DNA from: Mycobacteriales bacterium
GTDB lineage: Bacteria > Actinomycetota > Actinomycetes > BP-191
Direction of reading: 5' to 3'
DNA length: 64,000 nucleotides
NCBI GenBank assembly: GCA_035714365.1
Contig: DASTMB010000026.1
Coordinates: forward strand, 1 to 64,000
Shown piece after piece: positions 2,618-55,192 of this stretch. The translations under genes and the position numbers were made by a program. Every line of letters starts with the position of its first letter. Within the stretch, counting starts at the first letter, position 1. The notes beneath the pieces were generated by a model, which searched no databases, was not told where the DNA came from, and saw nothing but the letters and a program-made list of their open reading frames with translations.

Positions 2618-2670
2618 GCTTCCGGGAAGCGAATCGCGCTTTCGCCGTGCGGGGCCTGCTTCCGGGAAGC
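2618..2670. repeat. Paired GCTTCCGGGAAGC palindromes, copy A
   Basis: Two identical 13-base palindromes (GCTTCCGGGAAGC) lie at 2618-2630 and 2658-2670, start-to-start distance 40 bp. The spacer contains GCCGTGCGGGG (2644-2654). The same pair, with the same 40 bp distance and the same spacer word, recurs at 14996-15048. This copy sits between two convergent genes and ends 3 bases before the GNAT stop codon. It could be a protein-binding site, a terminator pair or a dispersed repeat; the sequence does not decide. Confidence 0.85.
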
Positions 2671-2672
2671 GG

Positions 2673-9089: not shown

Positions 9090-9104
9090 CCCCTCCGGCA
9101 CGAC

Positions 9105-9137
9105 GGGAGCCCCGGACCGCAACGGTCCGGGGCTCCC
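9105..9137 (+). terminator. Perfect 15-bp hairpin after the DUF3618 operon
   Basis: GGGAGCCCCGGACCG, loop CAA, then its exact complement. It lies 16 bases after the stop codon at 9089. No U-run follows, as is common in high-GC actinobacteria. Almost the same hairpin recurs at 9651-9685. Confidence 0.8.
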
Positions 9138-9643: not shown

Positions 9644-9650
9644 CGAACGA

Positions 9651-9685
9651 CGGGAGCCCCGGACCGCGAGGGTCCGGGGCTCCCG
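9651..9685. terminator. Hairpin between secreted gene and tRNA-Ala
   Basis: CGGGAGCCCCGGACC, loop GCGAG, complement. It lies 8 bases after the stop at 9643 and 8 bases before the 3' end of the convergent tRNA, so it may stop transcription from both sides. The left arm is identical to that of the 9105 hairpin. Confidence 0.8.
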
Positions 9686-9693
9686 TCTACCTG

Positions 9694-9766
9694 TGGAGGT
9701 AAGGGGATTCGAACCCCTGACCCCTTGCCTGCCGAGCAAGTGCTCTACCAGCTGAGCTATACCCCC
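9694..9766 (-). tRNA. tRNA-Ala (anticodon GGC)
   Basis: The cloverleaf folds completely on the minus strand: acceptor GGGGGTA/TACCTCC, D-arm GCTC..GAGC, anticodon stem CTTGC/GCAAG with loop TCGGCAG (anticodon GGC, reads GCC), T-arm AGGGG TTCGAAT CCCCT, discriminator A. The G3-U70 wobble pair, the alanine identity element, is present. CCA is not encoded. Confidence 0.95.
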
Positions 9767-14995: not shown

Positions 14996-15048
14996 GCTTC
15001 CGGGAAGCGGGCCGTGCGGGGAGGACGTCGGTGGCGCTTCCGGGAAGC
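14996..15048. repeat. Paired GCTTCCGGGAAGC palindromes, copy B
   Basis: Identical palindromes at 14996-15008 and 15036-15048, again exactly 40 bp start to start. The spacer holds GCCGTGCGGGG at 15011-15021, which is 15 bases into the element here and 26 bases in copy A. This copy lies between the divergent moxR and dehydrogenase genes, where regulatory sites would be expected. Confidence 0.85.
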
Positions 15049-15091
15049 GCGGCGGCGCGGCGGGGGCGGCGGCGCTGGCAGGATGGGCGGC

Positions 15092-30626: not shown

Positions 30627-30648
30627 CGCGGGGGGAACGGCAGGCGCG

Positions 30649-30720
30649 CGCGGTACGGGCTGCCGGTCCGGCGACTAAGGGAGCGCAGCGGAACTAGCCG
30701 GACCGGCAGCCCGTGCCGCG
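30649..30720 (+). repeat. Long-stem hairpin element with CGACTAA...CTAG loop, copy 1
   Basis: 23-bp stem (30649-30671 with 30698-30720) closed by a 26-base loop that begins CGACTAAGGGAGC and ends GGAACTAG. The single non-Watson-Crick position is a G-U pair when read on the plus strand and an A-C mismatch on the minus strand. It begins 12 bases past the stop of the minus-strand radical SAM gene. Copies 2 and 3 are at 52251 and 55115. Confidence 0.85.
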
Positions 30721-30732
30721 TGAGCCCGGGAG

Positions 30733-52209: not shown

Positions 52210-52250
52210 CGCGCAGGACGCTACCCGAGCGCACAGAGGAGCGACGGGCG

Positions 52251-52327
52251 CGGGATCGGGTACCGCACCGGCGACTAAGGGAGCCCGCGCCAGCGGGCGG
52301 AACTAGCCGGTGCGGTAGCCGGTCGCG
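52251..52327 (+). repeat. Long-stem hairpin element with CGACTAA...CTAG loop, copy 2
   Basis: 21-base arms (52251-52271 with 52307-52327), two mismatches and one G-U pair on the plus strand. The 35-base loop starts CGACTAAGGGAGC and ends GGAACTAG, with a small inner hairpin CCCGC..GCGGG. It starts 22 bases past the clpX stop on the minus strand. The arm sequence differs from copy 1 while pairing is kept. Confidence 0.83.
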
Positions 52328-52349
52328 GGCCCGCCGCTGGCTGTGAGCG

Positions 52350-55003: not shown

Positions 55004-55114
55004 CGTCACCTGCTCGTCTCTCGTCGGAAGGTCACGTTCGACCCTAACGCGAGGGGGCGACAGAACGCGTCCCGCTCGGGCCGCGTTCGCCGTGGGCGTA
55101 CGGGCGGGGTCGGC

Positions 55115-55182
55115 GGGGCGGCATACCGTTCGCGCTAGGGCGGCCTTCGGCCGCTTTAGTCGCGCGAACGGCACGCCGCCCC
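55115..55182 (-). repeat. Long-stem hairpin element with CGACTAA...CTAG loop, copy 3
   Basis: 20-base arms (55115-55134 with 55163-55182), 28-base loop. On the minus strand the loop reads CGACTAAAGCGGCC...CCCTAG with a 6-bp inner hairpin (GCGGCC/GGCCGC). Two positions are G-U pairs on the minus strand and A-C mismatches on the plus strand, so the strand with CGACTAA first is again the one that pairs fully. It starts 10 bases past the tig stop. Confidence 0.85.
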
Positions 55183-55192
55183 ACCTCCCACG

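Follow-up and report, generated by a model that had tools for sequence, protein, structure and literature searches.

A genus-restricted family of long-stem hairpins: a probable undescribed mobile hairpin of REP-like type, or a structured RNA with dispersed copies

Three long hairpins, each with a loop that starts with CGACTAA and ends with CTAG, lie close to the ends of genes in the 64,000 nucleotides of DNA from an uncultured actinobacterium analysed here (the window). This raises the question of what a conserved loop carried by stems of different sequence may represent. All three hairpins were found at the positions and with the polarity given in a preliminary description, with stems of 20-26 bp, and the adjoining genes are indeed those for a radical SAM protein (TIGR03960), clpX and tig, whose stop codons are 12, 22 and 10 bases away from the respective hairpins.

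Three hairpins of a dispersed family

Copy 1 (30647..30722, plus strand, subtype A) was identified with a covariance model (E 1.6e-11) and by folding as RNA and DNA. The arms of its outer stem, at 30647-30671 and 30698-30722, enclose the conserved module at 30672-30697 (CGACTAAGGGAGCGCAGCGGAACTAG), which consists of CGA, a CTA/TAG that may pair, the purine-rich internal loop AGGGA/GGAAC and an inner mini-hairpin closed by a C(GCA)G triloop. The radical SAM gene and TIGR03936 flank this copy, which is antisense to the two genes. Copy 2 (52247..52331, plus strand, subtype A; stem at about 52251-52271 and 52307-52327, loop at 52272-52306) lies 3' of clpX and antisense to it. Copy 3 (55111..55186, minus strand, subtype C), which was likewise identified with the covariance model and by RNA and DNA folding, has arms at about 55163-55186 and 55111-55134 and a loop at 55135-55162, read on the minus strand (CGACTAAAGCGGCCGAAGGCCGCCCTAG); it is found immediately beyond the tig stop and is sense to tig. 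Compared with dinucleotide shuffles, the folds of the window copies lay lower by 6.8 to 9 sd as RNA and by 6.2 to 6.8 sd as DNA.

We then considered the genome holding the window (G000, 3.80 Mb) and those of two other species of the same genus (G001 and the sister species G002). The exact pattern CGACTAAN{10,40}CTAG gave 49 matches across G000, as compared to 5 for the reversed pattern that served as control. A covariance model built from all exact-pattern matches, and then its successor, detected about 67 copies in G000, 19 in G002 and 4 in G001, with a few of the listed matches corresponding to the opposite strand of an already counted copy. The window copies are thus three of many, and the view that they belong to a dispersed family with a conserved loop is borne out by the exact pattern, the covariance model and the alignment alike. 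No copies were found in a covariance search of about 770 sampled actinobacterial genomes outside the genus (class n=392, phylum n=395, overlapping groups, with the stricter filters applied in these large searches), and pattern scans of GTDB r220 genomes and viral contigs gave 0 matches, records close to G000 possibly being omitted from these scans. Among the genomes sampled, the family is therefore restricted to one genus. Five copies are carried by contig ends of G000 (C12, C16, C29, C76 and C87; 0.7 expected, p 7e-4), which indicates that the hairpins break the assembly and that the copy number in G000 is probably undercounted. At one locus (L035, 1475-1638), two copies of different subtypes are separated by about 80 bp and share one orientation.

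Family-wide, the outer stem measures 18-26 bp and the loop 25-42. From the outside inwards, the outer stem is followed by CGA, by a CTA/TAG that is able to pair, by a purine-rich internal loop and by an inner hairpin of variable size (2 to about 12 bp), which is closed by a C(GNA)G triloop in 53 of 64 G000 copies. Such triloops are exceptionally stable in DNA, yet they are found in RNA too, and we take their prevalence as a weak hint toward DNA. Loops were assigned to subtypes A (AAGGGAGC..GCGGAAC), A' (A plus one extra A and T), B (AAAGGAGC..GCGGGAC) and C (AAAGCG..CGCC). In an alignment of 79 copies the loop columns C30, U31 and A33 are almost invariant, and an A to G change in CTA/TAG, present in 9 rows, still gives a G-U pair. 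Since CTA/TAG is nearly invariant, its pairing is hardly tested by covariation; the RNA energy model leaves it unpaired. The termini of the copies are not conserved. Across the copies, the base of the stem carries no conserved tag such as GTAG or CGTC, a U tract does not follow the stem, and a promoter-like column is lacking at any fixed upstream distance. The sole feature beyond the stem is a 5' flank of about 10-20 nt that is purine-rich (70% vs 55%) in every gene context.

Pairing, polarity and gene context

Covariation was assessed over the 21 outer-stem pairs of the 79-copy alignment, with shuffles and a slid pairing as controls. All 21 pairs change on both sides. Paired cells amount to 95.3%, as compared to 62.7% when shuffled and about 40% when slid, and there are 570 doubly changed cells versus 164 in shuffles; because of the kinship among copies the shuffle counts are not probabilities, whereas the slid control preserves relatedness. 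It should be noted that strong covariation by itself is no proof of RNA.

The wobble pairs reveal which strand is involved. The bias first noted in the three window copies holds for the whole family: at stem positions 1-18, read on the CGACTAA strand, 76 G·T pairs were counted against 4 A·C pairs, and the wobbles are concentrated at positions 9-10 and 18. Other kinds of long hairpin in 1.2 Mb of G002 show no such polarity (128:116; Fisher p 8e-14 for the difference). The bias is present in every gene context, as defined with a codon-usage gene caller (antisense 24:2, sense 23:1, convergent 19:1 and divergent 8:0). Its equal strength in antisense copies indicates that one strand is kept foldable and that this strand is the element's own and not that of the neighbouring mRNA. 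The CGACTAA strand folds and is kept foldable, and the earlier view that these hairpins are not simply terminators is upheld by the 24 G·T to 2 A·C in antisense copies, where the folding strand is not the transcript.

None of the copies is inside a gene. The majority are located just beyond a stop codon, often within about 20 nt, and in several convergent gene pairs the hairpin fills the intergenic gap. By context, the G000 copies comprise 19 sense, 21 antisense, 12 convergent and 9 divergent ones. Divergent gaps are used less than expected (9/61 vs 144/475, p 0.01), to an extent no different from that of other long hairpins (25/193). Adjacent copies on one contig, counted by hand, have opposite orientations in 15 cases and the same orientation in 11. 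Orientation is thus random relative to genes and contigs. A polarity set by the replication strand was ruled out by this mixed orientation along contigs, GC skew being too weak to use.

Turnover of sites and evolution of the stems

Five sites are shared between species. Four are common to G000 and G002 (clpX, L016, L025 and L029) and one is shared with G001 (L042); at clpX the stem of the G002 copy (L050) is different yet fully paired. Another candidate, L085 and L062 of G002, did not align as one site. The stems at the five shared sites differ by 17 double transversions, 4 double transitions, 5 whole-pair indels and 6 single changes, in short alignments on which the indel count depends, and the subtype is identical in both species at 4 of the 5. 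For about 12 G000 sites, the two flanks map near each other in G002. A copy is present at 2 of these sites and a degenerate copy at 1; the others are empty or hold an unrelated palindrome. In G001, the radical SAM/TIGR03936 operon has no hairpin. Where G000 has a copy at L006, G002 has a plain hairpin (contig C24 near 118200). The 5' arm of this plain hairpin is similar to the outer arm of the corresponding copy in G000, which would fit a gain or loss of the centre.

From copy to copy, the stems differ nearly as much as sequences drawn independently from a single positional profile would, with only a slight excess over column shuffles as a signal of recent duplication. No clean empty site was resolved, nor any target-site duplication, for which the flanks are too diverged. 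Sites therefore turn over between species, but a recent burst is not visible. Template switching between hairpin arms is a published mechanism (PMC8794818), and the observed pair flips and whole-pair indels fit what is expected of arm-to-arm copying. However, template switching alone gives no polarity, so that selection on one folded strand is required. The family offers a clean natural test of compensatory change, in which pair flips and indels combined with strict polarity separate one-strand selection from palindrome correction.

Possible identities of the family and other repeats

The preliminary description proposed either a mobile hairpin or a dispersed structured RNA. Both still lead among the explanations, but active jumping finds no support in stems that show little recent copying. 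Our preferred reading, held tentatively and at somewhat less than even confidence, is a genus-restricted, REP-like, non-autonomous dispersed palindrome in which folded, CGACTAA-bearing single-stranded DNA would be the working form. It is based on the many intergenic copies, their random orientation, the covariation, the polarity tied to the loop, and the gain and loss of sites. The folded strand would be single-stranded DNA, and a putative protein may recognise its CGA/CTAA…CTAG loop module and thereby spread or keep copies. The outer stem would have to pair while being otherwise fairly free in sequence, and template switching between the arms during replication could help it to change on both sides at once. 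Several observations weigh against a REP-like element. A link to a TnpA/RAYT-type enzyme, as suggested earlier, found no support: no Y1 transposase (PF01797) was found in G000, G001 or G002, the control genomes being positive. As other candidate partners, TnpB (PF07282) was absent from G000, and reverse transcriptase (PF00078) from G000 and G002, with one match in G001 only; Y2 transposase (PF04986) gave no match, and the controls were equally silent. No partner protein emerged from these searches. Moreover, given the dissimilarity of the copies a recent burst of transposition is not visible, neither a target-site duplication nor a clean empty site was resolved, and C(GNA)G triloops would suit RNA as well. 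Lastly, at shared sites the stems have kept their pairing where they are, which points to a resident function and not only to selection at the time of a move.

The main rival, possible but in our estimate rather unlikely, is that the family is a dispersed structured RNA, the CGACTAA strand being transcribed at every copy and the hairpin, of about two A-form turns with a conserved internal loop, being bound by a protein or processed. This would agree with the covariation, with G-U wobbles and G-U for A-U in CTA/TAG on a single strand only, with the clustering of wobbles at positions 9-10 and 18, and with an internal loop of a kind that a protein would bind. Nonetheless, copies antisense to both neighbours are as many as sense ones, so that antisense transcripts would be needed at dozens of unrelated places. 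A common upstream promoter-like column is lacking, a consensus scan at copy 1 found no promoter, and Rfam 15 models at gathering score matched only tRNAs in the window and no family corresponding to the hairpins.

We regard it as improbable that the hairpins are terminators or mRNA 3'-end hairpins of the actinobacterial type without a U tract, although termination may be a side effect. Consistent with such a role are the distance of about 20 nt or less from the stop codon for most copies, the filled convergent gaps, the plain hairpin replacing a copy at L006, and the share of divergent gaps, which equals that of other long hairpins. Yet the polarity follows the loop and not the transcript, and in antisense copies A·C stands in the mRNA at places where the opposite strand forms G·T (24:2). 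In addition, a U tract is missing, nine copies are found in gaps between divergent starts, and termination requires no conserved loop. Least probable are functionless palindromes kept perfect by intrastrand template switching (PMC8794818), which may still contribute, given the predominance of pair flips and whole-pair indels between orthologous stems and the several unrelated long-palindrome families in the genus, but which as the whole story are largely refuted, since they predict no strand preference, other G002 palindromes lack polarity, and the 76:4 ratio and conserved loop need selection.

Compared with known systems, the family shares with GTAG REPs and REPINs with RAYT (PMC3733652, PMC3116915) a dispersed, intergenic, palindromic and polar nature, proximity to stops, tolerance of G·T pairs, sub-families with alternative complementary stems, and a copy number that differs between related species. 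It has no GTAG at the hairpin end, no cognate RAYT was found in the three genomes, and its stem of 18-26 bp and loop of 25-42 contrast with the 5-13 bp and 2-20 of GTAG REPs (PMC3733652). In the present family, moreover, it is the loop that is conserved and the stem that varies. CGTC-tagged REPs are similarly dispersed and intergenic with no dedicated transposase known, but they have a CGTC tag, 8-9 bp stems and 4-5 base loops (PMC3733652), whereas the present family is longer and has no tag. The family is REP-like in its behaviour, but as it departs from REPs in tag, stem length and Y1 transposase, we file it among dispersed palindromic repeats and not as a REP. MITE-type repeats such as ERIC and Correia are also short, non-autonomous and intergenic, but their ends are conserved, whereas the present family is conserved at its centre and varies at its ends. 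The family further resembles integron attC sites, in which the stem of a folded DNA strand varies, unpaired features are conserved and a single strand is read. In contrast to attC, conserved core boxes are absent from the base of the stem, and the copies are scattered and not arrayed, with no cassette structure seen. In this family the usual REP layout is turned around: the centre is conserved, the arms are free, and the known REP transposase is missing. A new, Y1-independent class of strand-polar mobile or structural hairpin, whose central loop would be read by a putative protein and whose free-sequence 20 bp arms would be kept paired partly by template switching, is conceivable, if doubtful. 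Should there be a partner protein, Actinomycetota would harbour a hairpin-reading enzyme of a new kind.

Other repeats were met during the analysis. Further long-palindrome families of G002 (L180-L239, e.g. L181, L182 and L190) have no wobble polarity. They include TTTCGTGATCTTGGC…GCCAAGATCACGAAA (about 33 in 1.2 Mb), GGTTACTGGTGAGTAGCGAC…GTCGCTACTCACCAGTAACC (about 15) and smaller families built on GCAAGCGTTTCCTGCAGCG and GATCACCTGTGTCC. The sequence GCTTCCGGGAAGCG (window 2618-2671 and 14996-15049) has 50 occurrences in G000, which are often paired at a spacing of exactly 40 bp, and none in G001 or G002; it is a separate, species-specific repeat. Finally, two plain hairpins with a near-identical stem (CGGGAGCCCCGGACCG…) flank a short region of the window at 9103-9137 and 9648-9686, adjoining a tRNA gene at 9694-9766, and these are probably terminators.
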